Positions 31,856 through 61,216 of a DNA stretch of 64,000 nt are shown here, one piece after another (positions within the stretch are counted from its first letter, which is position 1; every line of letters begins with the position of its first letter). The notes below the pieces were generated by a model, which was not told the origin of the DNA, made no database searches, and saw only the letters and a program-made list of their open reading frames with translations. Both the position numbers and the translations under genes were made by a program. Location: NCBI RefSeq assembly GCF_004135345.1, contig NZ_CP035495.1, forward strand, positions 1,922,001 to 1,986,000, given 5' to 3'. Origin of the DNA: Xylanimonas allomyrinae (GTDB taxonomy: Bacteria; Actinomycetota; Actinomycetes; Actinomycetales; Cellulomonadaceae).

Positions 31856-34346
31856 TCACGACGGCCCAGGCTTGGGGCCCGGCGGCCGCCCGCGCGGCGG
31901 CGCGCCGCTCCCCGCCGCGCGGGCGGCGGCGCGGGCGGCGGCACGGGCAGTGACCCGGTGCACCACCTCCACGAGTGCCGCCCCGGCCGCCCCGACGACG
32001 ACGGCGACGGCGAGGCGGGCCGGCGTCACGGCCAGCAGGAACAGGTGCCGGGCGACCGGAGGGACGAGCACGGCCGCGGCGCCGGCGGCGGCCAGGCCCA
32101 GCACGAGCAGCGCCTTCCACCGGTTGAACGGTCGCGCGAGCACACCCACCGTCCACAACCCGATCAGCAGCACGACGATCGTCGACACGGTGCGCGCGTG
32201 CACGGGAGTCGTCCCCGGCTCGACCACCTGGGCCACCCGGAACCCCGTGTAGGCCGCCGCAGCGACGAGCACGCCGACGGGTACCGCGAAACGCAGCACG
32301 CGGCGCAGGAACCCTGGCACGTACCGCCGGTCGTTCGGCGCGAGCGCCAGGAAGAAGCCGGGCACCCCGATCGTCAGCGCCGAGATCAGCGTGAGCTGGA
32401 TCGGCTCGAGCGGGAACGTGCTGCCGGTGACGGCCACGCTGAGCGCGAGGACCAGCGAGTACACGTTCTTGGTCAGGAAGAGGTTGGCGGCCCGCTCGAT
32501 GTTGGCGATGACGCGCCGCCCCTCGGCCACGACCTGCGGCAGGTGGGCGAAGCGGCCGTCCAGGAGGACGAGCTGCGCGACGGCCTTGGTCGCGGCCGAG
32601 CCCGACCCCATCGCGACGCCGATGTCGGCGTCCTTGAGGGCGAGGGCGTCGTTGACCCCGTCTCCCGTCATCGCCACGACGTGGCCGCGGCTCTGGAGCG
32701 CCCCGACCATCGCGCGCTTCTGCTGCGGTGTCACGCGACCGAAGACGGAGTGCCGTTCGAGCACGTCGGCGAGGGCGTCGACGTCGTCCGGGAGGGTCGT
32801 GGCGTCGACGGCGTCGTCGGGCCCGGACACCCCGGGCACCCCGACGCGCGCGGCGACCGCCCCCACGGTCCGCGGGTTGTCGCCCGAGATGACCTTGAGG
32901 GCGACCCCCTGGCGGGTGAAGTACGCGAGGGTCTGCGCGGCGTCGGGCCGCAGACGCTCGGCGAGCACGACCAGCGCCACCGGGTCCAGGCCCCCGGGCA
33001 GCGTCGCCCCGGCCGAGGCGTCCACCGCGAGCGCCGAGGCCGTCCGCGCCAGGACGAGGACCCGGCTGCCCCCCGACGCGATCTCGTGGGCGCGCGCGAG
33101 CATCGTGTGCGCGCGCTCGCCCTCCGGCGCGACGAGCACCCGCTCGGGCGCTCCGAGCACCCACGTCGCGTCGGCGACCGACACGGCGGCCCACTTGCGC
33201 ACCGAGGAGAACGGGATCGTCGCCACGACCTCCCACGGGCTCGGGTCGAACGCGTCGGCGACGGCCGCGCCGGTCGCGTTCGGCTCGTCCCGGAACAGTC
33301 CGAGCGCCGCCCCGACCACGCCCGCCCCGACCACGTCCGCCCCGACCACGTCCGCCCCATCGGGTCCGACGGCCTCGACCCTGTCGAACACGATGTCACC
33401 GTGGGTGAGCGTCCCGGTCTTGTCCAGGCACACGACGTCGACCCGTGCGAGCCCTTCCACGGCCGGCAGCTCCTGGACGAGCGTGCTGCGCCGCGCGAGC
33501 GTGATCACGCCGAGCACGAAGGCCAGCGACGTCAGCAGCACGAGCCCCTCCGGCACCATGCCGACGAGCGCGGCGACCACCGCGGTGAGCGCGTCACGCC
33601 ACCCGTGGTTGGCAGCGCTGCGCATCTGGCTCCACACGAGGACGGGCGCCACGGCCACCATGAGCAGCGAGATCCAGCGCAGCAACCGGTTGGTGCCGGC
33701 CTGCAGCTCGGAGCGGGTCAGCGAGAACCGGCGCGCCTCGGCGGCGATCCGCGCCGCGTACGAGTCGGCGCCGACGCGCGTCACCTGGACCCGGCCCTGC
33801 CCGGCGACGACGATCGAGCCCGACCGCACGTCGTCGCCGGGTGGCTTCGGCACCGGGTCGGACTCCCCGGTCAGGAGCGACTCGTCGATCTCCAGGCCCG
33901 CGCTCACGCGCACCACGCCGTCCGCGGGACCTGGTCGCCCGCCCGCAGCTCCAGCAGGTCGTCGAGCACCACCGCCTCGACGGGTCCGGCCGCGACGACG
34001 CCGTCGCGCACGGTGCGCGCCGTGGGCGTGGTGAGCATCGCGAGCCGGTCGAGCGTGCGCTTGGCGCGGATCTCCTGGACGATCCCGACCACCGAGTTCG
34101 CCACGACGACGCCGACGAACAGGCCGTTCTGCCAGCGCCCGGTCGCCAGGACGACGCCGAAGAGCCCGACGAGCAGCGCGTTGAACGGCGTCAGGACGTT
34201 GGCTCGGACGATCTGCCCGAACGTGCGGCTCGGCAGCTGGGCCGTGTCGTTGGCCCGGCCGTCGGCGACGCGCTGGGCGACCTGCGCGGCCGTCAGCCCC
34301 CGGGCGGGGTCAGGCTCCCGGCTGGCAACGCGTCGGCTCGATCCAC
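31856..34346 (-). CDS. P-type cation-transporting ATPase, CtpE-like (two frame breaks)
   Basis: Catalytic landmarks are complete: LLTGES in the actuator domain (near 33860), the phosphorylation motif DKTGTLTHG (near 33420) and GDGVNDALALKDADIGVAMG in the hinge (near 32640). The last motif matches the HAD-IC group that includes mycobacterial CtpE, reported as a calcium importer/exporter; the ion here is inference. Start GTG 34346 is chosen because TAGGTT lies six bases before it. This needs one base at CCCCCGGG (34297-34304) to join LTPPRGLTAAQVAQRV. A second base at 33922-33928 restores AGDQVPADGVVRVSAG. The C-terminus ends in Ala/Arg and Pro/Gly repeats. Confidence 0.85.
33312..33356 (-). 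repeat. 15-bp tandem repeat, three units, in the P-type ATPase gene
   Basis: Three 15-base units (CCGACCACGTCCGCC on the plus strand, first unit with one change) encode the GADVV-type repeat in the nucleotide-binding domain region. It is the third gene in the window with an in-frame minisatellite. Confidence 0.8.
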
Positions 34347-34352
34347 GACCCG

Positions 34353-34358
34353 AACCTA
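34353..34358 (-). promoter_or_regulatory. -10 element of the P-type ATPase, leaderless start
   Basis: Reverse-strand TAGGTT followed by CGGGTC and then GTG: six bases between hexamer and start codon, so transcription would begin at the GTG. The same geometry recurs at other genes in the window and is the reason the start at 34346 is preferred over GTG 34404. Confidence 0.55.
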
Positions 34359-34428
34359 CCGACCTGCACGCGCCGCGCACCCGACGACGTCGGGATTCGG
34401 CCACAGGTGATGCGTGCTGCGGATGACG

Positions 34429-34611
34429 TCAGTGCGGCAGCGGCCGCGCGTCCGACTCCAGCAGCACGGGGATGCCCTCGCGCACCGGGTAGGCCAGCGG
34501 GCGCTGCGGGTCGGTCGAGTGCAGCTCGGGCTCGCCCGCCGGGCTCACGCCGTCGACCAGCGTGGCGCCGGTCACCGGGCAGCGCAGCAGGTCACGCACC
34601 CACGGGTCCAT
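34429..34611 (-). CDS. Trm112-like small protein
   Basis: 60 residues from ATG 34611. The pattern DLLRCPVTGATL near the start and YPVREGIPVLLESDARPL at the end is that of the Trm112/YcaR family. Only one cysteine of the expected zinc ribbon remains, which is usual in this actinobacterial branch. Eukaryotic Trm112 activates methyltransferases; the bacterial role is unknown. It lies 11 bases after pmm on the same strand, as in mycobacteria (next to manB), so the two are cotranscribed. Confidence 0.85.
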   Translation of the reverse strand: MDPWVRDLLRCPVTGATLVDGVSPAGEPELHSTDPQRPLAYPVREGIPVLLESDARPLPH

Positions 34612-34622
34612 CGCGACGCCGC

Positions 34623-36172: not shown

Positions 36173-36178
36173 TATCCT
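36173..36178 (+). promoter_or_regulatory. -10 element of manA, leaderless start
   Basis: TATCCT, then GACTCG, then the manA GTG at 36185, again with a six-base spacer and no ribosome binding site. It supports GTG 36185 over the upstream ATG at 36128. Confidence 0.6.
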
Positions 36179-36184
36179 GACTCG

Positions 36185-37411
36185 GTGTCTCGTGTCGTCC
36201 CGCCTCGCCCGCTGCGCCTGACCAACACCGTGCAGCGCTACGACTGGGGATCGGTCGACGCCATCCCCGCGCTGCTGGGTGTCGCGGCGGACGGGGGCCC
36301 GATGGCGGAGCTGTGGCTCGGCGGGCACCCGAGCGCGCCGTCCTTCGCAGACGTCGACGGCGCATCGGTCGACCTGCCCACCCTCATCCGTGAGGCACCG
36401 TCGGCGATGCTCGGCCGCCGGATCGCCGACGAGTTCGGCCCACGACTGCCCTATCTGCTCAAGGTTCTGGCAGCGAGTCGTGCCCTGTCGCTGCAGGTCC
36501 ACCCCAAGCCTCACGCGGCGCGCGAGGGCTTCAACCACGAGAACGCGCTGGGGCTGCCCGTCGGCTCGCCCAAGCGGTCGTTCCACGACGACCAGCACAA
36601 GCCGGAGATGGTCGTCGCGCTGTCCCAGTTCGAGGGCCTCGCGGGGTTCCGGTCGCCGCGCACGATCCTGGCGATCCTGGAAGGCCTCGACGGACGGCTC
36701 GTCGAGGCGGTCCGCGCACGGCTGCGTGCCGACCGGAGCGACGCCAGCATGCGCCAGGCCTTCCAGGTCCTCCTCGGTGCGCGCAGCGAGGCGACCTGCC
36801 GAGACGACATCGACGTGACCGTGGCGGCCGTCGGCGAGCGCCTCGCGTCCGGATCGCCCTTCGCGCGGGCCGACAGCACCGTCGTCGAGCTCGCACAGCA
36901 GCACCCGGGCGACCCGGGGGCGATCGCCTCGCTCATGCTCAACCGGGTCACCCTGGAGCCCGGCGAGTCGATGTTCACCCCGGCCGGTGAGGTCCACGCG
37001 TACCTGTCGGGCCTCGGCATCGAGGTCATGGCGAGCTCGGACAACGTGCTCCGCGCCGGCCTGACCACCAAGCTCGTGGACGAGGAGGCCCTCGTGCGCT
37101 GTGCGTCGTTCGCACCGCGCATGCCGGTGCTCCCGCAGGTGCACACGTCGGGCAGCCGCGGCCAGGTGCAGACCTACCGTGCCCCCGTGCGCGAGTTCGC
37201 CCTCACGACCGCCGACGTCGACCCCTCCGAGGAGGTCGCGCTTCCGGTCGAGGGCCCTCGCGTCGTCCTGTGCCTGGACGGCCAGATCGACCTGCGCACG
37301 GCGTCGGGCACCGTCAGTGCGAGACATGGGCAGTCCGTGTTCGTCCCCCACGCTGCCGGTCCCGTGGCCGTCGCGGGCACGGGACACCTCGTGTGCTCGT
37401 GGGTTCCGTGA
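36185..37411 (+). CDS. manA: Mannose-6-phosphate isomerase, class I
   Basis: 408 residues from GTG 36185. The type I PMI fold is clear: RLTNTVQRYDWGS at the start, the zinc-site region LQVHPKPHAAREGFNHENA, the HKPEM ligand motif, and the C-terminal PAGEVHAYLSGLGIEVMA with NVLRAGLT. The enzyme interconverts fructose-6-P and mannose-6-P, the first step to GDP-mannose. It is divergent from pmm. Frame intact and length typical. Confidence 0.95.
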   Translation: MSRVVPPRPLRLTNTVQRYDWGSVDAIPALLGVAADGGPMAELWLGGHPSAPSFADVDGASVDLPTLIREAPSAMLGRRIADEFGPRLPYLLKVLAASRALSLQVHPKPHAAREGFNHENALGLPVGSPKRSFHDDQHKPEMVVALSQFEGLAGFRSPRTILAILEGLDGRLVEAVRARLRADRSDASMRQAFQVLLGARSEATCRDDIDVTVAAVGERLASGSPFARADSTVVELAQQHPGDPGAIASLMLNRVTLEPGESMFTPAGEVHAYLSGLGIEVMASSDNVLRAGLTTKLVDEEALVRCASFAPRMPVLPQVHTSGSRGQVQTYRAPVREFALTTADVDPSEEVALPVEGPRVVLCLDGQIDLRTASGTVSARHGQSVFVPHAAGPVAVAGTGHLVCSWVP

Positions 37412-37952: not shown

Positions 37953-38309
37953 CTACTCCGCTTCGGTCCGCAGCACCCGCAGGTGCCCGCGTCGCGTCGT
38001 CTCGACGGCTCCGACCTCGGGCTCGACCGGGCGCCGCACCCGCCCGGCCTCACGCACGGCCTCGGCGAGCGCCGACAGGTCGTCGGGTGTGGGGCCGGCG
38101 TCGGCGTACTGCGGGCTCAGGCGCACCACTTCCCAGCCACGAGGCGCCGTCAGCCGCTCGGCATGCTCGGCGCACAGGTCGTAGCTGTGCGGCTCGGCGT
38201 GCTGCGCCAGCGGCCCGAGGACCGCCGTCGAGTCCGCGTACACGTAGGTGAGGGTCGCGACGGCAGCGCGCTGGCACGCCGTCCGCGAACACTGCCTGAC
38301 CGATCTCAC
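37953..38309 (-). CDS. DUF3499 domain protein
   Basis: 118 residues from GTG 38309. The family signature is seen as CSRTACQRAAVATLTYVYAD near the start and YDLCAEHAERLTAPRGWEV in the middle; three cysteines and a histidine (Cys7, Cys12, Cys46, His49 approximately) could bind zinc. DUF3499 is an actinobacteria-specific protein of unknown function kept beside pmm and whiB2 (Rv3258c in M. tuberculosis). It is divergent from the zincin-like gene, and both have leaderless-type promoters. Confidence 0.9.
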   Translation of the reverse strand: MRSVRQCSRTACQRAAVATLTYVYADSTAVLGPLAQHAEPHSYDLCAEHAERLTAPRGWEVVRLSPQYADAGPTPDDLSALAEAVREAGRVRRPVEPEVGAVETTRRGHLRVLRTEAE

Positions 38310-38315
38310 GCCGTG

Positions 38316-38321
38316 ACCTTA
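38316..38321 (-). promoter_or_regulatory. -10 element of the DUF3499 gene, leaderless start
   Basis: Reverse-strand TAAGGT, then CACGGC, then GTG 38309; six-base spacer and no ribosome binding site. Confidence 0.55.
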
Positions 38322-38404: not shown

Positions 38405-38410
38405 TAGGCT
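38405..38410 (+). promoter_or_regulatory. -10 element of the zincin-like gene, leaderless start
   Basis: TAGGCT, then CGCCGA, then GTG 38417; six-base spacer. It faces away from the DUF3499 element 84 bases to the left. Confidence 0.55.
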
Positions 38411-38416
38411 CGCCGA

Positions 38417-38947
38417 GTGGGATTCTTCGGCTCGTCACGCGGTGCGGCCCCGTCACCGCGACCGCACGGCCACTCCCGGCGCCTGCGGACAGGCCCCGGT
38501 GCTCTCCCCGAGGTCGGCGACCCGGCGCCGGCGCTGCCGACGCGCCGCCGCGACCGGCGCGGCCGTGGACTGCGTGGACCGCTCCTGCCGGCGGTCCTGC
38601 CCGCGCACCGCACGCGCGCCGAGGTGTTCGACGACCTCGTGCTCGACGCCGTCGAGGACCTGGAGCGGGGCTGGGCGCGCGAGCTGGCCGGCACGGAGTT
38701 CGCGGTCGAGGACGTGCCGCCGTCGGACCCCGCGCCGTGGGAGTCGGGCGGTGCGCCCCTGGGCCGCTGCTACCCGGAGGACTCGGGGCGGGCCGCGCGC
38801 GTCGTCGTCTACCGCCGCCCGGTCGAGCTGCGTGCCGAGGATCCCGACGACCTCGCGGACCTGGTGCACGACGTCGTCGTCGAGCAGGTGGCACACCTGC
38901 TCGCGCGGACGCCGGAGGAGATCGACCCCCACTTCGAGGGGCGCTGA
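38417..38947 (+). CDS. Zincin-like metallopeptidase family protein (degenerate active site)
   Basis: 176 residues from GTG 38417. A basic, low-complexity first 60 residues lead into the zincin-1 (PF06262-like) domain with RTRAEVFDDLVLDAVEDLER and VVVYRRPVELRAEDPDDLAD. At the place of the HExxH zinc motif the sequence reads VVVEQVAHLL, so the first histidine is absent and catalysis by a standard mechanism is doubtful. The gene is conserved next to DUF3499 in actinobacteria (Rv3259 in M. tuberculosis). Function unknown. Confidence 0.85.
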   Translation: MGFFGSSRGAAPSPRPHGHSRRLRTGPGALPEVGDPAPALPTRRRDRRGRGLRGPLLPAVLPAHRTRAEVFDDLVLDAVEDLERGWARELAGTEFAVEDVPPSDPAPWESGGAPLGRCYPEDSGRAARVVVYRRPVELRAEDPDDLADLVHDVVVEQVAHLLARTPEEIDPHFEGR

Positions 38948-44035: not shown

Positions 44036-44041
44036 TACCCT
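44036..44041 (+). promoter_or_regulatory. -10 element of the 44048 gene, leaderless start
   Basis: TACCCT, then GAGCGC, then GTG 44048; six-base spacer with no ribosome binding site. Confidence 0.55.
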
Positions 44042-44047
44042 GAGCGC

Positions 44048-45655
44048 GTGCCAGACAGCGCCGCCACGGGTGGCCTCCCCCGCATCCGGCGCGCGGGCGT
44101 GCCCGCGGCGGTCTGGCTCGTCGTGCTTCTTCAGGTCACCGTGTGCCTGCTCCAGACGGCCGTGTTCCCGAACGGCCGCTCGCCCGACGAGGCCAAGCAG
44201 GTCGACCTCGTCGTCCAGGTCGCCGAGGGCACCGCGTGGCCGTGGCCGTCGCCGGGCACGCTCGCCACGACGGCGGGCGTGCGGGCCGGTGCGGTCCTGC
44301 CCCCGGACCGGCTCCACGGTGCCGCGCACCTGGCGGACCGCGACTTCCGGCCGCGCGGTGAGCGCCCGTCGTGGGCGCAGGCGGGCGGTGCGGCGCCGTG
44401 GCTTGCCGACGGTGCGCCGCTCAACAACCAGCTCGTCCAGCATCCGCCGCTGTACTACGTGCTCGGCGCGGCCGTCGTTCAGGCCGTGCCCGGCTGGCAC
44501 GACCTGCCGTTCGACCGAGTGTGGATGGTCTTGCGCTGGGTCAACATCCTGCTCGCGGCCCCGCTGCCGCTGCTCGCGTGGGCGACCGCGCGGCGGCTGC
44601 GCCTGCCCGACCCGCTGCCGCTGGCCGCGGCGGGCGCCGTCGTCGCGATCCCCGAGCTCACGCACATCGCATCGTCGGTCAACAACGACAACCTGCTCGT
44701 GCTGCTCGGCGCGGCGGCGACCTGGCTCGTGGCGCGCGTGCTCACCGGCGACCACACCGCGCGCACCGCGCTCGCCCTGGGCGGCGTGACGTCGCTGGCG
44801 CTCGCGACCAAGGGGTTCGCACTCCTCCTTCCGGCCTGGGTTGCCGCCGCCTACGCTGCCGCCTGGTGGCACGGGCGGCGCACGCGCGGGTCGGCGCACG
44901 GCACGCTCGCGGCGTCGCTGTGGGCGCTGGCCGCGATGCTGCCCGGGCTCTCCTGGTGGGCACGCAACCTCGTGCTCTTCGGAGCGCTCCAGCCGCACGG
45001 CACCCATGCCGACCAGGGGTACCTGCAGTCGGGCGAGCGCTACACGTGGGCCGACGGCGGGGCGGCATGGCTGCACCGGCTCGTCGACCGGCTGATCACC
45101 CTGTTCTTCGTGCAGGACCAGGCTGCGCACCTCCGCCACGACGCCTCATGGTGGGCGTCCAGGGCGGGGCTCGCCGCGCTTGCCGTCGGCATCGGCGTCG
45201 CGCTGGTGCGCGGGCCGCTGCGGCGGCTCGACGCGCTCGTGCTGCTGGCGCCCGCCGCGGCGCTCACGGCGATCGTCGCCAAGGGCTCGTACGAACAGTT
45301 CGTCGCGTTCCGCAACCTGGGTGCCGCGCAGCAGGGGCGGTACCTCTACCTGGCGGTGGTGGCGATCGTCGTGGTCGCGGTCGCAGGGGCGGTACGGGCG
45401 CGCCGCTGGGCGCCCGCGATCGTGCTGGTGCTCGGACTGGGCCTCCACGCAGCCTTCCAGGCTGACGCGTGGGCGGTTCTGTGGCTCCCGGAAGGGCCGG
45501 GGTCACCGGCCGCGATCGGCGCGGCGGCCGGCGCGATGGTTCGGCTGCACCCCTTCGGGTGGGCGGCGCTCGGGCCCGCCGCGATCGTGACGACGGCGGG
45601 CCTCGCCGTGGCCACGGCCGTGGCGGTGAGCCAGATCAGACGGCGCGGCGCTTGA
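44048..45655 (+). CDS. DUF2142-type polytopic membrane protein (copy 1)
   Basis: 535 residues from GTG 44048. About eleven membrane helices. The first external loop contains NGRSPDEAKQVDLVVQ and later HPPLYYVLGAAV, and helix 4 region has SSVNNDNLLVLLGAAATWL, the DUF2142 signature set (PDE, PPLYY, NND) that places it among GT-C-like membrane glycosyltransferases. It would use a polyprenyl-phosphate sugar donor on the outer membrane face; donor unknown. Its 3' end overlaps the convergent whiB gene by 20 bases. Confidence 0.85.
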   Translation: MPDSAATGGLPRIRRAGVPAAVWLVVLLQVTVCLLQTAVFPNGRSPDEAKQVDLVVQVAEGTAWPWPSPGTLATTAGVRAGAVLPPDRLHGAAHLADRDFRPRGERPSWAQAGGAAPWLADGAPLNNQLVQHPPLYYVLGAAVVQAVPGWHDLPFDRVWMVLRWVNILLAAPLPLLAWATARRLRLPDPLPLAAAGAVVAIPELTHIASSVNNDNLLVLLGAAATWLVARVLTGDHTARTALALGGVTSLALATKGFALLLPAWVAAAYAAAWWHGRRTRGSAHGTLAASLWALAAMLPGLSWWARNLVLFGALQPHGTHADQGYLQSGERYTWADGGAAWLHRLVDRLITLFFVQDQAAHLRHDASWWASRAGLAALAVGIGVALVRGPLRRLDALVLLAPAAALTAIVAKGSYEQFVAFRNLGAAQQGRYLYLAVVAIVVVAVAGAVRARRWAPAIVLVLGLGLHAAFQADAWAVLWLPEGPGSPAAIGAAAGAMVRLHPFGWAALGPAAIVTTAGLAVATAVAVSQIRRRGA

Positions 45656-46091: not shown

Positions 46092-46097
46092 TACCCT
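46092..46097 (+). promoter_or_regulatory. -10 element of the TIGR03089 gene, leaderless start
   Basis: TACCCT (within TTATACCCT), then GTCCTC, then GTG 46104; six-base spacer and no ribosome binding site. Confidence 0.55.
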
Positions 46098-46103
46098 GTC
46101 CTC

Positions 46104-46877
46104 GTGAACACCGCGACCGCAGGGCCCAGGACGATCGACGCGCTGATGAACGTGCTGGTCAGCGACCCAGGGCGGCCGCGCCTGACCTGGTACGGCGACG
46201 ACGGCGAGCGCGTCGAGCTGTCCGGCGCGGTCCTCGCGAACTGGGTGAACAAGACCACCAATCTGCTCGTGGAGGAGTTCGACGCTGGCGCAGGACGACG
46301 CATCCTGATCGACCTCGTGCCGCACTGGCGTTCGGCGGTCTGGGTTCTGGGCGCGCTGCGCTGCGGCGCGACCGCGGTGCTGGCCGGCCCCGGCGGGCGC
46401 ACCCCGGACGGCCACGACCCCGACGTGACGATCACGACGCGCCCCGCCGCGCACACCGGCGACGTCGTCGCCGTCGCGCTCCCGGCGCTCGCACGCCGCT
46501 TCGACGGCGACCTGCCCCCGGGCACGATCGACGCCGCCTCTGCCGTCATGACCTACGCGGACACGGTCGGTTGGGCCCCCGCGACGGACCCGGGCGAGCC
46601 GGCGATCGTCGCCCCGGCGGCGACGGCGCCCGTGCAGGGCGTGCTGTTCGGGGACCTGTTCGGGTGGGCCTCAGGGGCCGAGCCGCGCGGCCGCGTGCTG
46701 CTGGACGGGCGTGCGCCGCTGGTCGAGACGCTGCGCTCGATGCTGGGCGCCTGGTCGGCCGGGGGTTCGGTGGTACTCACCTCCGCGGCGACCGCCACCG
46801 CCTTGGCGGGCGACCCCGCCCGCCTGACCCGGCTCGTGGCACAGGAGGGCGTCACCGTCACGCCGTCCGGCCGCTGA
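46104..46877 (+). CDS. TIGR03089 family protein
   Basis: 257 residues from GTG 46104. It matches the actinobacterial TIGR03089 family: TIDALMNVLVSDPGRPRLTW near the start and LIDLVPHWRSAVWVLGALRC in the middle. The sequence resembles the N-terminal part of AMP-binding (acyl-CoA synthetase-like) enzymes but lacks the P-loop-like TSGTTGKPK motif and the C-terminal domain, so adenylation activity is unlikely. Function unknown. It stands beside whiB in several actinobacteria and converges on the methyltransferase with a 3-base gap. Confidence 0.85.
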   Translation: MNTATAGPRTIDALMNVLVSDPGRPRLTWYGDDGERVELSGAVLANWVNKTTNLLVEEFDAGAGRRILIDLVPHWRSAVWVLGALRCGATAVLAGPGGRTPDGHDPDVTITTRPAAHTGDVVAVALPALARRFDGDLPPGTIDAASAVMTYADTVGWAPATDPGEPAIVAPAATAPVQGVLFGDLFGWASGAEPRGRVLLDGRAPLVETLRSMLGAWSAGGSVVLTSAATATALAGDPARLTRLVAQEGVTVTPSGR

Positions 46878-47634: not shown

Positions 47635-48578
47635 CTAGCGGCTCCTCGCGGGACGGACCAGCATGCCCACGGCCGCGAAGACGAGGTCCACCACGGTGAG
47701 CAGCGCACGCGTGAGCAGCACGACCAGCAGCACCGCGGCGTGCGGAAGGGCGCCGGCGAGGAGCGCGAGCAGCACCGCCTCACGCACCCCGGCGCCCGCG
47801 GGCACGAACACGACGACGAACCCGGCGACCCACGCGAGCGCGTACCCGCCGACGAGCATGACGAGCGTGCGCCCGGTCGCGTCCAGGCCGAGGCCTGTCG
47901 CCAGCAGCCACACGTGGACGCCCGCGACCACCCAGCTCAGCACCGACCAGCCGACCGCGACGCCCAGGCCGCCCCAGCTCAGCGGCCGCTCCAGCGGGGG
48001 CGTCGCAGCAGCCGCAGCCCGACGCCCACCAGGCGCCCCAGCACCGCCGGAACCAGCAGCACCAGCAGCAAGGGAGCGACCCACGCCAGCCACCCCCAGC
48101 CGTGCAGGTCTCCCGCTCCGGCGACCGACAGGCACACGGCCGCCGTCACCGTGCCCGAGACCACCCCGAGCAGCACCGCCAGCGCCATCGCCGCGAGCGA
48201 CCGGGCTCGCGGCACCTTGTGGTCGGCCCCGATCTCTGCCGCGGCCACGACGTTCCAGACCCCGCCGGGCACGTACTTGCCGATCTGGCTCACGCCGAAC
48301 ACGGCGACCGCCGGTCGCAGCGGCAGCGGCGAGCCGAGGTCGGCGAGCAGCGCCCGCCACGACAGGAAGGTGCACCACACGTAGACGAGCCCGGCGGCAC
48401 CGGCCCCGGCCAGGTGGGCGCCCGGCATGCGCCGCGCGGCCACGGCGAGCTCGTCCCACGACGCCGCGACCGCGACGACCGCGAGCGCGACGGCCGCCAC
48501 GAGGAACACCCACCTCACGACGGGCGAGCGCAGCACGGCCAGCGCACGGCGGGCCGACGGGCGGGCCGCGGTGGTCAT
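47635..48578 (-). CDS. UPF0104/lysylphosphatidylglycerol synthase-type flippase domain protein (one frame break)
   Basis: Start ATG 48578 overlaps the stop of the preceding glycosyltransferase (ATGA). About eight membrane helices; the family motif KYVPGGVWNVVAAAEIG is at about residues 103-119. The frame breaks after RLLRRP; one added C (G on the plus strand) at 47996-48000 gives RRPPLERPLSWGGLGVAVGW and continues through VPAGAGVREAVLLALLAG to 47635. The repaired length is about 314 residues, normal for the family. Relatives flip lipids or accompany polysaccharide synthesis; specificity is unknown. Confidence 0.85.
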
Positions 48579-49708: not shown

Positions 49709-50748
49709 GGGCGGCTCTCCGGGGCGTCGGCCGGCCGGGGCGTCGTCGGCGAGGTCCTGGCCGTGCCGTTGGCGGCGTCGCGGCCGGGATCGCGCACGAG
49801 CTCGGGTGCGGGCCCGTACTGGAGCTCCTTGGTGCGTTCGAGGATCTCCTCCGACAGTGTCCGGTTGGTGCTCAGCAGGTCGGCGATGACCAGGAGCGCG
49901 AAGCACAGCAGCGAGCCGACCAGCATGGTGGTGCCGAACACGACGGACTGCACGTGCCCGGCCCCGTGCCCCTCGGTCCACAGGACGAGGAACCGCACGA
50001 GCGGCACGATGCCCGCGACCCCGAACACGGCCCCGAGCGTGAGGAACACGCCGTACGGCTTGTACATCACGTAGCTGCGGGCGATGGCCTTGCCCGACTG
50101 GCCCATGTGCTGCCAGATGTTCTTGAACAGCCGCGACGGGCGCGTCCTGGCGTTGGTGGTGATGGGCACCGAGGCGATCCGCAGTCGCTTGTTGCCCGCC
50201 TGGATGATGGTCTCCATCGTGTAGCTGAACTGCGTCAGCACGCTCAGCCGCATGAGCGCGGCACGCGAGTACGCGCGGAAGCCCGATGCGGCGTCGGGCA
50301 GCGACGTGCCCGCGGCGACCGACACGACGCGTGACCCGACGCGCTGCATGAGCTTCTTGAACGGCGAGAAGTGCGCGATGGTCGCCGTCTGCCGGTCGCC
50401 GATGGCGATGTCGGCCTCACGCCGCAGCAAGGGCCCCACCAGCGCCGGGATCATCTCCTGCGGGTACTGGTTGTCGCCATCGGTGTTCACAACGATGTCG
50501 GCGCCGTGCCGCAGCGCATAGTCGATGCCGTCACGGAACGAGCGCGCCAGGCCTATGTTGCGCGTGTGCCGAACGACGTGCTCGACGCCGAGCGCGCGCG
50601 CGACCTCGACCGTGCGGTCCGTCGAGCCGTCGTCGATGACGACGACGTGCACCTCGTCGATCCCGGGGATCTCTCGCGGGATCGACGCCAGAACGAGGGG
50701 CAGCGTGGCCTCCTCGTTGAGGCACGGGATCTGCACGAACAGCTTCAT
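49705..50748 (-). CDS. Polyprenyl-phosphate glycosyltransferase, GT2
   Basis: 347 residues from ATG 50748 (ATGA overlap). The GT2 domain has FVQIPCLNEEATLPLVL, VVIDDGSTDRTVEVA, the metal motif NTDGDNQYPQEMIPALV and RQTATIAHFSPFKKLMQ, typical of dolichyl-phosphate mannose/glucose synthase-like enzymes. Two C-terminal membrane helices (about 245-270 and 285-305) anchor it. It would make a polyprenyl-phosphate sugar, the very donor type that the adjacent DUF2142 (GT-C-like) proteins use. Confidence 0.9.
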   Translation of the reverse strand: MKLFVQIPCLNEEATLPLVLASIPREIPGIDEVHVVVIDDGSTDRTVEVARALGVEHVVRHTRNIGLARSFRDGIDYALRHGADIVVNTDGDNQYPQEMIPALVGPLLRREADIAIGDRQTATIAHFSPFKKLMQRVGSRVVSVAAGTSLPDAASGFRAYSRAALMRLSVLTQFSYTMETIIQAGNKRLRIASVPITTNARTRPSRLFKNIWQHMGQSGKAIARSYVMYKPYGVFLTLGAVFGVAGIVPLVRFLVLWTEGHGAGHVQSVVFGTTMLVGSLLCFALLVIADLLSTNRTLSEEILERTKELQYGPAPELVRDPGRDAANGTARTSPTTPRPADAPESRP

Positions 50749-52388
50749 CGACGGCCTCCAGCCTCGGGAACGGGGGAACTCCGCCGTGCGACGACGGCGC
50801 TGCGTACGACGACGGCGACGGCTCCCACGGCGAGCGCCGCGGCGGCACCGACGGTCGCCGCCAGCCAGCCTGGGCTCAGCGGGCTCCACGCCGCCCAACG
50901 CGCGAGGGCGTCACCGAAGGTGTCATCCGCACAACGGTAGAACGCCCCAAACGCCCAGGCGAGCCCGCTGGCGCCGGAAAGCAGCCCGAGCCCGGTCACG
51001 ACGACGAGCGTCACCCGCGCGCGGTCCTCACGCCGCCTGACCGTGTGCCACAGCCCCACGGCGAGCAGCGCGCCGAGCGCGGCCAGGCCACCGTAGACGT
51101 ACCGCCCGTGCAGCGCGACGAGGCGGTCGGTGTCTCGCCAGAACTGCCACGCGTTGAAGATCACCCCGAACGTCAGCCCAGCGGGCAGCGCGGCGAGCAC
51201 CAGCGCTCCGCGGCGCGTTCCAGGGACGGTCAGCGCGACGACGCCCGCGGCCGCGAGCAGCACCGATCCCAGCACCACGAGCCGCAGGTCGAGCCAGATC
51301 TCGAGCCACGAGAGGTGACCCCAGAACGACTGTGCGACACGCCGCACCGCCGTGGGCAGCACGTCGGCCGCGGGCACGATGTCCAGCCGGGACACGTCCC
51401 GCGGGCGCCCCACGGGCTGCACCGCACCGAGCACGAGCACGTTGCGCACCCACCACCATCCGCCCGCGGCGAGGGCGGTTCCCAGCGCGGTCGCGCACCG
51501 CGCTGCGCGCGGCCAGAACGTGCCCCGCCAGTCGACCCGCCAGGGGCGCGGCGCGGGCCGCCCTCCCCAGGGGGCGAGCGCGTAGGCCGCGACGACGCCG
51601 GGCACGGCGAACGCCGGCATGACCTTGCCGAGCAGCCCGAGCCCGAGCACGACGCCGAGCGCCACGGCCGTGCGCCAGCGCGTGTCACCCGTGACGACGC
51701 GCACGCTGAGCCAGGTCACGACGGCGAGAGCGATGACCACGATCGCGTCGTTGTTGGCCGAGCCGAGGATGTTGCCCACCCCGGGCGCGAACAGCGGCAG
51801 CGGCGCGGCCACGAGCGCCGCGGGCCACGACCCGGTGAGCCGCCGCGCGGAAGCGGCCGCGAACGGCACGGCGGCGGCGAGCATGGCGACGTCCATGAGC
51901 CGCAGCGCGAGCAGCGCCTGGTCCCAGCGTGCGTCGGCGAGGCCTGTGACGCGCAGCAGCGCGGCGCCGACGGCGTACCAGCCGGGCGGGTGCTGGGTCA
52001 TCTGGTCGACGACGGCGTCGGCGGGCGGCGGCGTCGGGGTCACGGCGTTGCCGGCGTCGATGCGTGTGCGTTCGGCGCGCACCGACGGCGTCCGGTCGAC
52101 GAACTGCGGCTTGCCGGGCCGCACGATGCGCCGTCCTGGCAGGTCACCGGGCCAGCCGGCCTCACGCTCGGCGTCGGCGACGATGGGCGGCACATACGCC
52201 TCGCCCGGCGGGGGCCACCCTCCGCCGTAGGCGATCCGCAGCACGGAGCCCAGGTGCGTCTGCTCGTCGGGTGAGCGGAAGGGTGGGGTGAGCACCGCCC
52301 AGCAGACCCCCCATGCGGCCACGAGCACGAGCAGCGCGGCCAGAGCGCGTCGCCAGGCGACGTCGCTCCTCGCGTCCTGAGTTCTCAT
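50745..52388 (-). CDS. DUF2142-type polytopic membrane protein (copy 2)
   Basis: 547 residues from ATG 52388; the open frame continues much further upstream as antisense to copy 3. About twelve membrane helices. LTPPFRSPDEQTHLGSVLRI (first loop), QHPPGWYAVGAAL and LGSANNDAIVVIALAVV carry the PDE, PP and NND family motifs. Strong similarity by eye to copy 3 (both have TPPxRxPDExxHLxSVLRxAYGGGW) points to a tandem duplication. Probable GT-C-like glycosyltransferase using polyprenyl-linked sugar. Confidence 0.85.
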   Translation of the reverse strand: MRTQDARSDVAWRRALAALLVLVAAWGVCWAVLTPPFRSPDEQTHLGSVLRIAYGGGWPPPGEAYVPPIVADAEREAGWPGDLPGRRIVRPGKPQFVDRTPSVRAERTRIDAGNAVTPTPPPADAVVDQMTQHPPGWYAVGAALLRVTGLADARWDQALLALRLMDVAMLAAAVPFAAASARRLTGSWPAALVAAPLPLFAPGVGNILGSANNDAIVVIALAVVTWLSVRVVTGDTRWRTAVALGVVLGLGLLGKVMPAFAVPGVVAAYALAPWGGRPAPRPWRVDWRGTFWPRAARCATALGTALAAGGWWWVRNVLVLGAVQPVGRPRDVSRLDIVPAADVLPTAVRRVAQSFWGHLSWLEIWLDLRLVVLGSVLLAAAGVVALTVPGTRRGALVLAALPAGLTFGVIFNAWQFWRDTDRLVALHGRYVYGGLAALGALLAVGLWHTVRRREDRARVTLVVVTGLGLLSGASGLAWAFGAFYRCADDTFGDALARWAAWSPLSPGWLAATVGAAAALAVGAVAVVVRSAVVARRSSPVPEAGGRR

Positions 52389-54198: not shown

Positions 54199-54204
54199 TA
54201 GGCT
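54199..54204 (+). promoter_or_regulatory. -10 element of the rhamnosyltransferase-like gene
   Basis: TAGGCT lies nine bases before ATG 54214, so the leader would be two or three bases at most. The 113-base divergent gap to copy 3 holds nothing else. Confidence 0.45.
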
Positions 54205-54213
54205 CGGGTCCCG

Positions 54214-55118
54214 ATGTCCCAGCACCCTTCCGCCGCACCGTCCGGCGCCCTAATCCGCGTCGTGTGCGTCGTCTTCAACCCCGGCGACGAGCTCCGCTCG
54301 TTCGTTTCGTCGCTCGCCCTGGCGACGCGGCTGCCGTACGAGCTGGTGATCGTCGACAACGGCGAGTCCACCGACGTCGTCGACGAGCTCGATGCGGCCG
54401 GCGAGGCACGGGTCGTGCGCCATCCCGGTGGCAACGTCGGCTATGGTCGCGCCGCCAACGAGGGCGCGGCAGGGACGACGGCACCGTGGCTCGTCGTCGC
54501 GAACCCCGACGTCGTCTGGGAGCCCGGCTCGCTCGACCGGCTGGTCGAGGCCGCGACCGCCGACCCGGGCGCCGGAAGCCTGGGGCCGCGCATCCTGAAC
54601 ACGGATGGGACGACGTACCCGTCGGCGCGCTCGCTCCCGTCGCTGACCGTCGGCGCAGGCCACGCCCTGCTGCACACCGTCTGGCCCTCCAACCCGTGGA
54701 CGCGCGAGTACCGCCAGAGCGAGGCCATCGTCTCGGCGGACGCCCCGCGCGCAGCGGGCTGGCTCTCGGGGGCCTGCCTTCTGCTGCGCCCCGCCGCGTT
54801 CACCCAGGTCGGCGGGTTCGACGAGCGCTACTTCATGTTTTTCGAGGACGTCGACCTCGGCGACCGGCTCGGGCGCGCCGGCTGGCGCAACCTCTACGTG
54901 CCGGCCGCTCGCGTGACGCACCTACAGGGCGTGTCGTGGAAGCACTCGCCCGCGCCGATGATCCGCGCCCATCACGCGAGCGCGAAGCGGTACCTGTTCG
55001 ACCGGTGGGGGCGTGGTGGCAGGCGCCGGTGCGGCTGGTCATGGGCGTCGGGCTCTGGGTGCGGGAACGGGCCGAGGTCGCGCTGTCGGAGCGCGAACGA
55101 CGCCGCGAATCGCGGTAG
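54214..55118 (+). CDS. Rhamnosyltransferase-like GT2 enzyme, WbbL type (one frame break)
   Basis: ATG 54214. The GT2 core reads [67 protein letters not shown] and [18 protein letters not shown]. The ANPD and EDVDL motifs fit WbbL, which adds rhamnose to polyprenyl-linked GlcNAc in the mycolata wall linker. Read literally the frame runs into rmlA as a 602-residue fusion; one added G at 55007-55011 gives [20 protein letters not shown] and a stop at 55118. The fusion is therefore an artefact. Neighbouring rmlA, rmlD and rmlC supply dTDP-rhamnose; wbbL lies next to manB and rmlD in M. tuberculosis. Confidence 0.85.
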
Positions 55119-55158
55119 CGCGACGCGGGCCGCCGCGACTGCGGCACAATGGGGAACC

Positions 55159-56022
55159 ATGCGCGGAATCATCCTCGCCGGCGGCTCCGGCACCCGACTG
55201 CACCCCATCACCATGGGCGTGAGCAAGCAGCTCGTGCCCGTCTACGACAAGCCGATGATCTACTACCCGCTCTCGACGCTGATCCTCGCGGGCATCCGGG
55301 ACATCCTCGTCATCACCACCCCGCACGACGCCGAGCAGTTCCACCGCCTGCTCGGCGACGGCTCGCAGTTCGGCGTCTCCATCAGCTACACGGTGCAGGC
55401 CGAGCCCAACGGTCTCGCGCAGGCTTTCGTTCTCGGCGCCGACTTCGTGGGCACCGACTCGGTCTCGCTGGTGCTGGGCGACAACATCTTCTACGGCCCC
55501 GGCCTGGGCAGCACGCTCATGCGCTTCCACGACATCGACGGCGGCGCCGTCTTCGCCTACCGCGTGTCCGACCCGACCGCCTATGGCGTGGTGGAGTTCG
55601 ACGCGAGTTTCAAGGCGCTCTCCCTGGAGGAGAAGCCGGCGCACCCGAAGTCGAACTACGCCGTGCCCGGCCTGTACTTCTACGACAACGACGTCGTCGA
55701 GATCGCCAAGAACCTCAAGCCGTCGCCCCGCGGTGAGTACGAGATCACGGACGTCAATCGTCGCTACCTCGAGGCGGGCAAGCTGCAGGTCGAGGTGCTG
55801 CCCCGCGGCACCGCGTGGCTCGACACGGGCACGTTCGACTCGCTTCTCGAGGCCAGCGACTACGTGCGCACCATCGAGAACCGCCAGGGCCTGAAGATCG
55901 GCAGCCCCGAGGAGGTCGCGTGGCGCCGCGGCTTCCTGTCCGACGACGAGCTGCGCGCCCGTGCGCAGAAGCTCACCAAGTCGGGGTACGGGACCTACTT
56001 GCTGGGTCTGCTGGATCAGTGA
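55159..56022 (+). CDS. rmlA: Glucose-1-phosphate thymidylyltransferase
   Basis: 287 residues from ATG 55159 with GGGGAA upstream. The nucleotide-binding loop [11 protein letters not shown] (6-16), [18 protein letters not shown], the GDNIFYG metal region, [20 protein letters not shown] and [17 protein letters not shown] are all as in RmlA. It makes dTDP-glucose, the first step to dTDP-rhamnose. Length equals the family norm. It is 40 bases downstream of the rhamnosyltransferase-like gene and ends in a strong hairpin. Confidence 0.96.
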
Positions 56023-56086: not shown

Positions 56087-56959
56087 TCAGGCCAGGACGA
56101 CGGGCGCCGCGACCTTCCAGCGGTCGGCCCAGTCCCCGATCGGCTCGACGCCGACGGCCCGCAGCGCGTCGTGGCCGAGCACCGAGTAGGCGGGCCGTGG
56201 CGCCTTCGCGGCGAAGGCCGCCGAGCTCACCGGGTCGACGCGCGCGCTCAGCCCGGCGGCGGCCATGATCTGCTTCGCGAACCCGTTCCAGGTCACCTCG
56301 CCCGATGACGTGCCGTGGTACGTGCCTGACGGCACCGCGGCCGCCACGAGCCGCACGATGAGGTCGGCCAGGTCGACCGTCCAGGTCGGCTGGCCCTTCT
56401 GGTCGTCGACGACGGTCAGCACGTCGCGCTCCGCCCCGAGGCGTGCCATGGTCTTGGGGAAGTTGGGCCCGCCGGCGCCGTAGAGCCAGGCGGTGCGGAC
56501 GATCAGGTGGTCCGGGTTGCCCGCCCGTACCGCCCACTCCCCCGCAGCCTTGGTGCGTCCGTACGCCGACGCGGGCGCCATCGGTGCGTCCTCCGCGTAG
56601 GGCGAGGTGCCGTGCCCCTCGAAGACGTAGTCGGTCGAGATCTGCACGATCTTCGCATCGGCTGCGGCCGCGGCCCTCGCCAGGTTGTGCGGCCCGACGG
56701 CGTTGACCGCGAACGCGGCGGCCTCCTGGTCCTCCGCCGCGTCGACGGCGGTCCACGCGGCACAGTTCACGACGACGTCGTAGCCACGCACCCCCGCGAG
56801 GGCGGCGGCAGCGTCGGTGATGTCGAGGTGCTCGCGGTCGACGGCGTCGACATCGGCACCGGCGGCGCGGGCGGCGGCCACCACGTCCTGGCCGAGCATG
56901 CCGTGCGCGCCGACGACGAGCCAGCGGCCCGTGAGGGAGGGATTCGCGGAGGAGTTCAC
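56087..56959 (-). CDS. rmlD: dTDP-4-dehydrorhamnose reductase
   Basis: 290 residues from GTG 56959. NAD(P)H loop GAHGMLG (17-23), STDYVF (108-113) and the catalytic Tyr133-x3-Lys137 (YGRTK) identify the RmlD short-chain reductase. VVNCAAWTAVDAAE and PTWTVDLADLIVRLV complete the pattern. It carries out the last step of dTDP-L-rhamnose synthesis. It is divergent from rmlC, with -10 elements sharing one palindrome. Confidence 0.95.
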   Translation of the reverse strand: MNSSANPSLTGRWLVVGAHGMLGQDVVAAARAAGADVDAVDREHLDITDAAAALAGVRGYDVVVNCAAWTAVDAAEDQEAAAFAVNAVGPHNLARAAAAADAKIVQISTDYVFEGHGTSPYAEDAPMAPASAYGRTKAAGEWAVRAGNPDHLIVRTAWLYGAGGPNFPKTMARLGAERDVLTVVDDQKGQPTWTVDLADLIVRLVAAAVPSGTYHGTSSGEVTWNGFAKQIMAAAGLSARVDPVSSAAFAAKAPRPAYSVLGHDALRAVGVEPIGDWADRWKVAAPVVLA

Positions 56960-56962
56960 GCG

Positions 56963-56972
56963 TAGGATCCTA
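56963..56972. promoter_or_regulatory. Palindrome TAGGATCCTA holding both rmlD and rmlC -10 elements
   Basis: TAGGATCCTA reads as a -10 (TAGGAT) on both strands. On the minus strand it is seven bases before the rmlD GTG, giving a leaderless start. On the plus strand it would start transcription about 38 bases before the rmlC ATG, leaving room for the GAGGAG ribosome site. The two elements overlap by two bases, so simultaneous use by two polymerases is impossible. Confidence 0.5.
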
Positions 56973-57012
56973 GAGCCCGCGTCCCGCCCTTCCGACGAGG
57001 AGACGTTTCCCG

Positions 57013-57627: not shown

Positions 57628-57666
57628 CGCCGTCGGCGTCGACCTCGATCGCTGCCTGCCACGCGG

Positions 57667-58794
57667 TCAGAGCAGCTCGTCCAGGCCCGCCTCGCGGACG
57701 GCGTCCACGACGGACTTGACCTGCTGCGCGCGCGCCCGCGTGGTCACGAGCAGCGCGTCGGGCGTGTCGACGACGACGAGGTCGTCGACACCCAGCAGCG
57801 TGATCACGCGCCCCGTCCCCGGCACGACGACGGTGCCGCCGACCTCGATCCGTACGACGTCGGACCCGTCGCCCACGACCTTGTTGCCGGAGTCGTCGAC
57901 GCTCGGCAGCAGCGCCGCGAGCGAGTTGAAGTCGCCGATGTCGTCCCAGGCGAAGATCCCGGGTACGACGGCCACGCCGCCGGCGGCCGCGACGGGCTCG
58001 GCGATCGCGTGGTCGATCGCGATCTTCTCCAGGCTCGGCCACACTCGCGCCATGACCTCGTCCCGCGCGCCGGTGTCCCACGCGGCGGCGATCTCGGTCA
58101 GGCCGGCGTGCAGCGCGGGGCGCTGTTGCGCGAGGTGGCCCAGCAGCACCGAGGTGCGGACGACGAAGATGCCGGCGTTCCAACGGTAGTCGCCGGACGA
58201 CACGTACTCGCGCGCCGTGGTGGCGTCCGGCTTCTCGGTGAACCCGAGCGCGTGCAGCGCCGACGGTGCGCCTGCCACGCCCAGCGGGCCGCCCGACTGC
58301 ACGTAGCCGAACGCGACGGACGGACGCGACGCGGCGATGCCGATCGTGACGACGTACCCCTCGCGCGCGGCGGCGACCGCCTCACGCACGGTGCCCTCGA
58401 ACGCTGCCTTGCCGTTGATCACCTGGTCGGCGGCGAACGACCCGACGACGACGTCGCCGTGCCGCCGCTGGAGGACTGCCGCGGCCAGGCCGATCGCGGC
58501 CATGGAGTCGCGGGGGGCGGGTTCCGCGAGGACGTCGGCCTCGGCGAGCTGCGGGAGCTGCGCGCGGCAGGCGGCGACATGCTTCTCGCCGGTGACCAGC
58601 ATCTGGCCCCGGGCGATCGGCGCCAGGCGGGCGAAGGTCTGCTGGATGAGGGTCTGACCCGCACCGGTGAGGTCGTGGAGGAACTTCGGCGCGCCCTGCC
58701 GAGACAGCGGCCACAGGCGGGTGCCTGCGCCGCCCGCCGGGATGATCGCGTAGAAGTCGTCGATCGGGCCCCCGGGAACCTGCTGCTCAGTCAT
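57667..58794 (-). CDS. manC: Mannose-1-phosphate guanylyltransferase
   Basis: 375 residues. The nucleotidyltransferase loop GGAGTRLWPLSR is at 21-32, followed by KFLHDLTGAGQTLIQQTF; later FTEKPDATTAREYV and WNAGIFVVR are typical of the ManC/ManB(Rv3264c) type, and FAWDDIGDFNSLAALLPS closes the active site. It makes GDP-mannose from mannose-1-P and GTP, completing the ManA-Pmm-ManC path found in this window. No fused isomerase domain. Leaderless-type promoter upstream. Confidence 0.94.
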   Translation of the reverse strand: MTEQQVPGGPIDDFYAIIPAGGAGTRLWPLSRQGAPKFLHDLTGAGQTLIQQTFARLAPIARGQMLVTGEKHVAACRAQLPQLAEADVLAEPAPRDSMAAIGLAAAVLQRRHGDVVVGSFAADQVINGKAAFEGTVREAVAAAREGYVVTIGIAASRPSVAFGYVQSGGPLGVAGAPSALHALGFTEKPDATTAREYVSSGDYRWNAGIFVVRTSVLLGHLAQQRPALHAGLTEIAAAWDTGARDEVMARVWPSLEKIAIDHAIAEPVAAAGGVAVVPGIFAWDDIGDFNSLAALLPSVDDSGNKVVGDGSDVVRIEVGGTVVVPGTGRVITLLGVDDLVVVDTPDALLVTTRARAQQVKSVVDAVREAGLDELL

Positions 58795-58800
58795 GCACCG

Positions 58801-58806
58801 AGCATA
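58801..58806 (-). promoter_or_regulatory. -10 element of manC, leaderless start
   Basis: Reverse-strand TATGCT, then CGGTGC, then ATG 58794; six-base spacer and no ribosome binding site. Confidence 0.6.
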
Positions 58807-58848
58807 GGAGACGACGTCCCTCGCCCCGGCGTGACGGCGCTGCGGACG

Positions 58849-59976: not shown

Positions 59977-60008
59977 CCAGGACTCCAGGTGGTTCGGCGG
60001 GCCGTACG

Positions 60009-60014
60009 AGGCTA
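60009..60014 (-). promoter_or_regulatory. Candidate -10 element of the 59976 glycosyltransferase
   Basis: Reverse-strand TAGCCT would give a leader of about 25 bases carrying CTGGAG. It lies in the 109-base divergent gap shared with the next gene. Confidence 0.4.
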
Positions 60015-60072
60015 CCGTGCCGACGGCGCCACGACCGCGGCCGCCTGTCTCGGATGCGTCGGCGCGCACGGC

Positions 60073-60078
60073 TAGGCT
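60073..60078 (+). promoter_or_regulatory. -10 element of the 60086 glycosyltransferase, leaderless start
   Basis: TAGGCT, then seven bases, then GTG 60086. It supports GTG 60086 over the longer open frame. Confidence 0.55.
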
Positions 60079-60085
60079 CAGGGCC

Positions 60086-61216
60086 GTGCGCGCCTCCGAC
60101 ATCCTCGACGTGGCCATGACGGTGGAGCAGCTGTGGCAGCCCGTCCCCGGGGGCTCTGGGACGTATATCCGCGAGCTTGCCGCGGAGCTCGCCGAGCGCG
60201 GCGACGTCGTGCTCACGGGGGTACGCGCACGAGGCTCCGACGACGACCTGCGCGGCTTGCCCGGGTCGATGACGCTGCGCCGCTCCCGGCTGCCCCGGGC
60301 CGTCCTCTACGAGGCGTGGACGCGGTGGCGGCGCCCCGCCGTCCCCGGCCCCCGCCCGGCCGTGCTGCACGCCACGACGTGGGCCGTACCGCCGCGCACC
60401 GCCCCGATGACGGTCACCATCCACGACGTCGCCTTCCGCCGCAGCCCTGAGCACTTCACCAGGCGCGGCGTCTCCTTCTTCGAGCGTGCTCTGGAGATCG
60501 CACGGCGCGAGGCCGACTCGATCGTGGTCCCGTCGATCGCCACCCGGGAGGACTGCGTCGCCGCGGGCATCGACCCCGCGAGGATCCACGTGGCACCGCA
60601 CGGGGTCACGGCGCATTCGGTCGATGACGCCCAGGTCGCAGCCTTCCGCGGGCGCCACCGCATCGAGCGCCCCTACGTCATGTGGTGCGGGGCCATCGAG
60701 CCGCGCAAGAATCTCGGGGTGCTTCTGGAGGCGTTCGCCGGCGTGGTCGGCGACACCGATCTCGACCTGGTGCTGGTCGGCCCTGACGGCTGGGGCCGTG
60801 CGGCCGACGATCTCCGAGCGCGTCTCGACACACTGCCCGCCGAGCGTGTCCACGTCCTGGGCGCACTGAGCTGGCGCGAGCTGCACGAGGCCTACGCTGC
60901 CGCCCACGTGTTCTGCTTCCCGTCCCTCTGGGAGGGCTTCGGCATGCCCGTCCTCGAGGCGCAGGCCCACGGTGTTCCCGTGGTCACCTCCCGCGCGACG
61001 GCGATGGAGGAGGTGGGGGGCGAGGGCGTGGTGCTCATCGACCCGCGCGATCCGCACGACGTCGCGGCCGGCCTGCGCGAGGCGGCGGGCCCCCGGCACG
61101 CCGCGCTCTCCGCCGCGGGCCAGGTCAACGCCAGCCGCTACACGTGGGCACGTTCGGCCGAGCGGCACATCGGCGCGTACCGCGCGGCACTCGACCACGC
61201 GGGCGAGAGGGCATGA
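60086..61216 (+). CDS. GT4 glycosyltransferase
   Basis: 376 residues from GTG 60086. It resembles the divergent neighbour: TVTIHDVAFRRSPEHFTRRG, PSIATREDCVAAGI, MWCGAIEPRKNLGVLLEAF and VFCFPSLWEGFGMPVLEAQA. These shared motifs suggest the two divergent genes are paralogues that add related sugars. It is coupled to the following GT2 gene by an ATGA overlap. Confidence 0.88.
   Translation: MRASDILDVAMTVEQLWQPVPGGSGTYIRELAAELAERGDVVLTGVRARGSDDDLRGLPGSMTLRRSRLPRAVLYEAWTRWRRPAVPGPRPAVLHATTWAVPPRTAPMTVTIHDVAFRRSPEHFTRRGVSFFERALEIARREADSIVVPSIATREDCVAAGIDPARIHVAPHGVTAHSVDDAQVAAFRGRHRIERPYVMWCGAIEPRKNLGVLLEAFAGVVGDTDLDLVLVGPDGWGRAADDLRARLDTLPAERVHVLGALSWRELHEAYAAAHVFCFPSLWEGFGMPVLEAQAHGVPVVTSRATAMEEVGGEGVVLIDPRDPHDVAAGLREAAGPRHAALSAAGQVNASRYTWARSAERHIGAYRAALDHAGERA

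Follow-up and report, generated by a model that had tools for sequence, protein, structure and literature searches.

A TANNNT box at fixed spacing from the start codon points to leaderless mRNAs in Xylanimonas allomyrinae

In a stretch of 64,000 nucleotides from the actinobacterium Xylanimonas allomyrinae (contig NZ_CP035495.1, positions 1,922,001 to 1,986,000; referred to here as the window), the start codons of ten genes, GTG or ATG, stand six or seven bases after a TANNNT hexamer. Judged from this pattern, the sites are very probably promoters of the principal sigma factor in which the −10 hexamer is fused to the coding sequence, and the mRNAs would be leaderless. Directly visible are the motif, its fixed spacing and reading frame, its excess across the genome, the lack of a −35 signal, the scarcity of Shine-Dalgarno (SD) sites and the conservation of several of the sites. 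The initial annotation of the window had already proposed leaderless expression, an interpretation supported by the enrichment at a set spacing, the same peak in relatives, the lack of five-base SD matches, the absence of such genes among those with four-base overlaps, and conservation.

In the proposed mechanism, TANNNT is where RNA polymerase would melt the DNA, and the first nucleotide of the RNA would be the A or G of the start codon, six to eight bases further downstream. The resulting mRNA would carry no 5′ leader, and the ribosome would start at the 5′-terminal AUG or GUG without SD contact. Genes inside transcription units instead rely mostly on GTGA or ATGA overlaps and SD sites. The sigma factor, the position of the first transcribed base (+1) and leaderless translation are what we infer, and +1 is placed on the start codon by analogy with the same geometry mapped in mycobacteria (Cortes et al., 2013, PMC3898074; Shell et al., 2015, PMC4633059). 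About a fifth of the sampled genes that stand first in their units seem to start their mRNA at the start codon, a habit that is known in Actinobacteria and ordinary for the group, though clear in the sequence.

A scan for TANNNT at this spacing against a shuffled control, suggested in the initial annotation, was carried out on sequence of the same genome beyond the window (40 stretches, each of 20 kb), and its outcome is strongly positive. The sample holds 517 usable genes, of which 333 are unit-first, meaning that they have a divergent neighbour or a gap of at least 40 bases. Before an in-frame ATG, GTG or TTG near the called start of these 333 genes, TANNNT occurs 33, 23 and 7 times at spacings of 6, 7 and 8 bases, compared with 0–5 times at each other spacing from 0 to 25; the corresponding totals for both wrong frames are 1, 0 and 1. 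At the called start alone, 41 matches are observed versus 1.6 in dinucleotide shuffles (s.d. 1.2, maximum 6 over 300 shuffles). The mirror-image hexamer TNNNAT is found 8, 5 and 1 times at spacings 6, 7 and 8, inside its own range of 0–9 over spacings 0–30.

The same peak appears in stretches of 20 relatives, where 708 unit-first genes give 130, 76 and 10 matches at spacings 6, 7 and 8, and every other spacing from 0 to 30 gives 0–12 (mean about 4). Many of these stretches had been chosen to lie around anchor genes, among them the leaderless DUF3499, tmk and aroQ and the SD-led hrcA, while ten from G009, a member of the same genus (L281-L290), were chosen by position only. Centring on leaderless genes inflates the counts, yet the peak in spacing is not a product of it. 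The box itself is not strict: at spacings 6–8 from the called start, CANNNT and GANNNT too are more frequent than expected (30 versus 7.4 and 18 versus 9.9), so TANNNT alone probably undercounts. Neither is it the full consensus, since strict TATAAT-N6-GTG has no match in the whole genome.

By the rule of TANNNT at spacing 6–8, 77 of the 517 genes are leaderless-like, 63 of them unit-first, with spacing 8 in 7 of the 77. SD matches of four bases or longer precede 9 of these 77 genes, compared with 111 of the 270 other unit-first genes. Leaderless-like starts are commoner in divergent genes (41/155) than in same-strand genes with a gap of at least 40 (22/178; p = 0.0012), and none occurs among the 80 genes with a four-base overlap. 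The −35 element of a classical −35/−10 sigma-70 promoter is missing: no TTGACA-like signal was found about 17 bases upstream of the −10 box, where at least four of six bases match in 7 of 77 genes versus 27 of 308 control positions. A pyrimidine immediately precedes the start codon in 26 of 40 genes at spacing 6 and in 36 of 37 at spacing 7–8 (p = 3e-4), as would be expected if the polymerase passes earlier bases and starts on the first good purine, at the start codon. The 77 start codons comprise 42 GTG, 35 ATG and no TTG. A preference for GTG at leaderless starts, as nine of the ten window sites might suggest, was rejected on these numbers.

The ten sites and one looser case in the window are as follows (window positions, from hexamer to start codon).

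34344..34358, minus strand: proposed start of a P-type ATPase; TAGGTT, 6 bases, GTG (34346); the frame stops after 17 codons
36084..36098, minus strand: phosphomannomutase pmm; TAGCCT, 6 bases, GTG (36086); Pfam PGM_PMM
36173..36187, plus strand: manA; TATCCT, 6 bases, GTG (36185); Pfam phosphomannose isomerase
38307..38321, minus strand: DUF3499 (gene 37953-38309); TAAGGT, 6 bases, GTG (38309); Pfam DUF3499
38405..38419, plus strand: zincin-like metallopeptidase; TAGGCT, 6 bases, GTG (38417); Pfam Zincin_1
44036..44050, plus strand: membrane glycosyltransferase-like protein; TACCCT, 6 bases, GTG (44048); weak PMT match below the Pfam cut-off
46092..46106, plus strand: AMP-binding-like protein (TIGR03089 in the initial annotation); TACCCT, 6 bases, GTG (46104); AMP-binding below the Pfam cut-off
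56957..56972, minus strand: rmlD; TAGGAT, 7 bases, GTG (56959); Pfam RmlD
58792..58806, minus strand: manC; TATGCT, 6 bases, ATG (58794); Pfam NTP_transferase with ManC helix
60073..60088, plus strand: glycosyltransferase; TAGGCT, 7 bases, GTG (60086); Pfam above cut-off
54199..54216, plus strand: GT2 glycosyltransferase, the looser, near-leaderless case; TAGGCT, 9 bases, ATG (54214)

All ten sites lie where they had been reported, and the count of eight with exactly six bases is correct, the other two (rmlD and the glycosyltransferase at 60086) having seven. GTG is the start codon at nine and ATG at one, manC. Products of window genes were compared with Pfam, and matches are above the cut-off except for AMP-binding (46104) and PMT (44048). 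The claim that none of the ten has a ribosome site holds for SD matches of five bases, of which there are none from −20 to −4, but four-base AGGT or AGGA falls within that range at the ATPase, DUF3499, zincin and rmlD. The described divergent arrangement applies to eight sites by the gene calls, not to the ATPase and manC, and to seven if the small gene call at 45636-45962 is not real. The coupled starts described for the polysaccharide genes are real, with 12 four-base overlaps in the window (10 GTGA, 2 ATGA), including those at 48575, 49705 and 50745 in the polysaccharide run. When the codon-based caller is used alone, 8 of 35 unit-first genes in the window have the motif at spacing 6–7, and one out-of-frame match occurs at spacing 6. 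The looser case is also present as reported. The open reading frame that it precedes, 54214-56022 on the plus strand, has 602 codons and an odd joint between a GT2 domain (16-142) and a nucleotidyltransferase domain (318-551); this may reflect a shift of frame where the first gene ends, and not a genuine fusion.

The P-type ATPase gene is split over frames within 31856-34404 on the minus strand. Its E1-E2 and hydrolase domains lie in 31856-33916, and an N-terminal piece in another frame, 33904-34404, has no Pfam match and is 84% identical to the gene of G009. The frame of GTG 34346 differs from both frames that hold the pieces. In G009, the only relative with a match, the gene starts with TAGGTT-N6-GTG and continues for 809 open codons. 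The start given in the initial annotation is thus right by comparison, and the copy in this assembly, with 17 open codons, is interrupted. The interruption may be a sequencing or assembly error, or it may be decay.

DUF3499, a gene of unknown function whose GTG start is fused to the −10 box, has a constant site. Its loci were sought in named genomes, where at least 360 were confirmed and the best 80 (L041-L120) kept. GTG with TANNNT occurs in all of these best 80 of at least 360 loci, at spacings of 6, 7 and 8 in 25, 9 and 46 of them. They span several orders, from Promicromonospora, Cellulomonas and Isoptericola to Streptomyces, Pseudonocardia, Kribbella and Nocardiopsis, with the best matches in Promicromonospora, Antribacter and Cellulosimicrobium. 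The motif is likewise present in 20 of 20 relatives fetched. A wider draw from the phylum, scored for presence only, contains DUF3499 in 26 of 60 genomes.

Conservation of the other sites in the fetched relatives ranges widely. The pmm motif is found in all 17 relatives with a match in the fetched stretches; for manA, some of the matches listed have it and some do not. TANNNT at spacing 6–7 precedes the zincin gene in 19 of 19 relatives with a match when a wide search window, which admits more chance matches, is used; under a narrower rule, 5 of 10 evaluable loci have it. Only 10 of the 77 zincin loci found could be evaluated because of a filter on the variable N-terminus. The site at 44048 recurs in 4 of 4 relatives with a match, and that of the TIGR03089-like gene (46104) recurs at spacing 6–7 in 14 of 15, with spacing 9 in the remaining one. 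For rmlD, two of five relatives with a match have the motif (spacing 7 in G009 and 8 in G010) and three have none. The glycosyltransferase at 60086 has a match in one relative, G009, where the spacing is again 7, and manC has no match within the fetched stretches. The looser GT2 site (54214) has spacings of 7–9 in 6 of 8 relatives with a match, suggesting that a leader of one to three bases may be kept.

Leaderless status appears to be mostly a trait of the gene family at this distance. Panels of 30 loci per gene were drawn from one family, this genome's locus included. Leaderless calls were made for 29 of 30 tmk loci (one not evaluable), 26 of 30 aroQ loci (one partial) and 10 of 30 etfB loci; hrcA and yajQ each gave 0 of 30, and a wider rule added one yajQ case. 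Of the 24 gene families in which seven or more members were classified, 13 lack leaderless calls altogether and seven have 88–100%. The 141 members of these seven comprise 120 leaderless, 12 with both signals, 5 SD, 3 with neither and 1 excluded for lying at a contig edge. SD families have 3 leaderless calls in 320. This near all-or-none split goes with the distance-dependent exchange of signals (PMC3160421) and with leaderless status being common to two mycobacteria (PMC4633059).

Several points weigh against leaderless expression or weaken parts of its support. The evidence is DNA sequence, with transcript 5′ ends inferred rather than mapped, and gene starts come from a codon-usage-based caller rather than an annotation. 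Of the 77 leaderless-like genes, 14 are not unit-first (8 with a gap below 20 and 6 with a gap of 20–39), which makes for matches in 8 of 155 and 6 of 29 same-strand genes with such gaps. The absence of TTG says little, since no more than 11 of 333 unit-first genes use this codon in any case. Relatives show a smaller −1 effect (69/84 at spacing 6, 47/52 at spacing 7), and the excess of −1 pyrimidines is modest when compared with SD-led genes (62/77 versus 156/238, p = 0.015) or with genes that have stronger SD sites (62/77 versus 81/118, p = 0.07). A stop follows the ATPase start by 17 codons. Finally, pmm is leaderless-like in 23 of 69 evaluable named loci, with 46 of 69 not, and manA in 3 of 38; these being the same loci as those of DUF3499, other genes evidently do turn over.

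For a minority of sites there is a small but appreciable chance that the −10 box is real and that transcription begins one to five bases upstream of the start codon, leaving a tiny leader. Such near-leaderless genes could coexist with the leaderless ones, and the larger spacings fit them: 8 in a few of the 77 leaderless-like genes and in more than half of the 80 DUF3499 loci, and 9 at the GT2 gene. In mycobacteria, start codons at +2 to +5 are held to be used less efficiently than at +1 (PMC4633059). Spacing 6 is nevertheless the commonest in this genome and its relatives, and the nearly constant −1 pyrimidine at spacings 7–8 is what a start on the codon itself would give.

Far less probable than such tiny leaders is the use of the same box by another process, for example as a regulator site at start codons, or the translation of a longer transcript from a second, upstream promoter. 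Upstream promoters may indeed exist, and the excess of CANNNT and GANNNT agrees with a box that is not strict. Yet the pattern is that of the actinobacterial −10 element (PMC3160421, PMC3898074), SD sites are scarce, and the sites are spread over many unrelated genes, unlike one regulon. Chance, AT-richer upstream DNA or codon bias could be invoked because TANNNT has only three fixed bases, but this is scarcely credible given the sharp dependence on spacing and frame, the shuffles, the mirror control, the relatives and the uniform DUF3499 loci. Transcription from a −10 box fused to the coding sequence thus stays the preferred reading.

The TAnnnT leaderless class is already in print for Actinobacteria (PMC3160421, PMC3898074, PMC4633059), and the present genome clearly adds another member. 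Zheng et al. (2011; PMC3160421) described TAnnnT signals about 10 bp upstream of the start codon in Actinobacteria, with some 20% leaderless (TA-led) genes and an exchange of signals that depends on distance. The present case is alike in the position of the signal, the share of genes and the high G+C content; it differs in that the sites of a single genome, of a Promicromonosporaceae-like lineage, are examined individually, with controls for spacing and frame and with footprints traced in orthologs. In Mycobacterium tuberculosis, mapped 5′ ends revealed a TANNNT −10 element, no −35 motif, a purine at +1 and C at −1, with leaderless transcripts for 26% of genes with a primary start site and both GTG and ATG in use (Cortes et al., 2013; PMC3898074). 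The same features recur here, except that the 5′ ends were measured there and are deduced here. Shell et al. (2015; PMC4633059) held RTG at +1 to be necessary and sufficient in mycobacteria, described RTGA-coupled genes and found leaderless status to be often common to two species. All three traits have likely counterparts in X. allomyrinae, with the difference that they were measured in two mycobacteria and are drawn here from the 30-locus panels and the 80 DUF3499 loci. In Deinococcus-Thermus, another phylum, a −10 region adjoins open reading frames and leaderless mRNA is produced, as tested there with vectors and reporters (Zhong et al., 2025; PMC12340547). To judge by titles and abstract openings, the papers found on leaderless expression in Micrococcales or Cellulomonas include no apparent survey of this lineage.

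A further idea is that the choice between GTG and ATG in leaderless genes is held by transcription, which would initiate with GTP or ATP, and not by translation. The reasoning is that the first base of the start codon would also be the first base of the RNA. The data are suggestive, a lead rather than an established effect, and the idea is rather improbable. GTG looks frozen in DUF3499 (all of the best 80 loci), tmk (29 of 29 evaluable of 30) and pmm (16 of 17 relatives), whereas the SD-led hrcA (13 GTG, 16 ATG, 1 TTG) and yajQ (12 GTG, 18 ATG) mix their codons. Less frozen among leaderless families are aroQ (23 ATG versus 3 GTG) and etfB (6 GTG versus 4 ATG). When gene families with seven or more calls are compared, the average probability of a codon difference between two members is 0.21 for 8 leaderless sets and 0.39 for 16 SD sets (p = 0.075), with etfB counted in both and the anchor families chosen because they are leaderless or SD-led in this genome; adding DUF3499 and zincin gives p = 0.032. 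Contrary to freezing, mixed codons are seen in zincin, etfB, the TIGR03089-like gene and another leaderless family, and to a slight extent in aroQ. An SD family that is dnaJ-like by eye uses GTG in 15 of 15 members, and three more SD families are nearly fixed (13 to 1, 16 to 1 and 16 to 2). If true, freezing would link entire families of genes to the level of GTP or ATP, for instance during the stringent response.

Where start codons are hard to place in this G+C-rich DNA, the spacing rule helps to decide between them. Together with the losses in pmm and manA and the near all-or-none families, the invariant DUF3499 offers a gene set for asking what selection keeps leaderless status. The case also illustrates that a reader of raw sequence recovered a known genome-wide expression habit from ten sites.

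Two minor features of the window deserve mention. An eleventh candidate at 47637 on the minus strand, TAGGCT-N7-GTG before a methyltransferase, was rejected because the TAG of its hexamer serves the upstream gene call (47635-47943) as stop codon; it is also absent from G009, the only relative with a match. A tRNA-Gly (gcc) called by ARAGORN at 52013-52093 on the plus strand lies within the opposite-strand coding region 50745-52328 and is probably a false positive.

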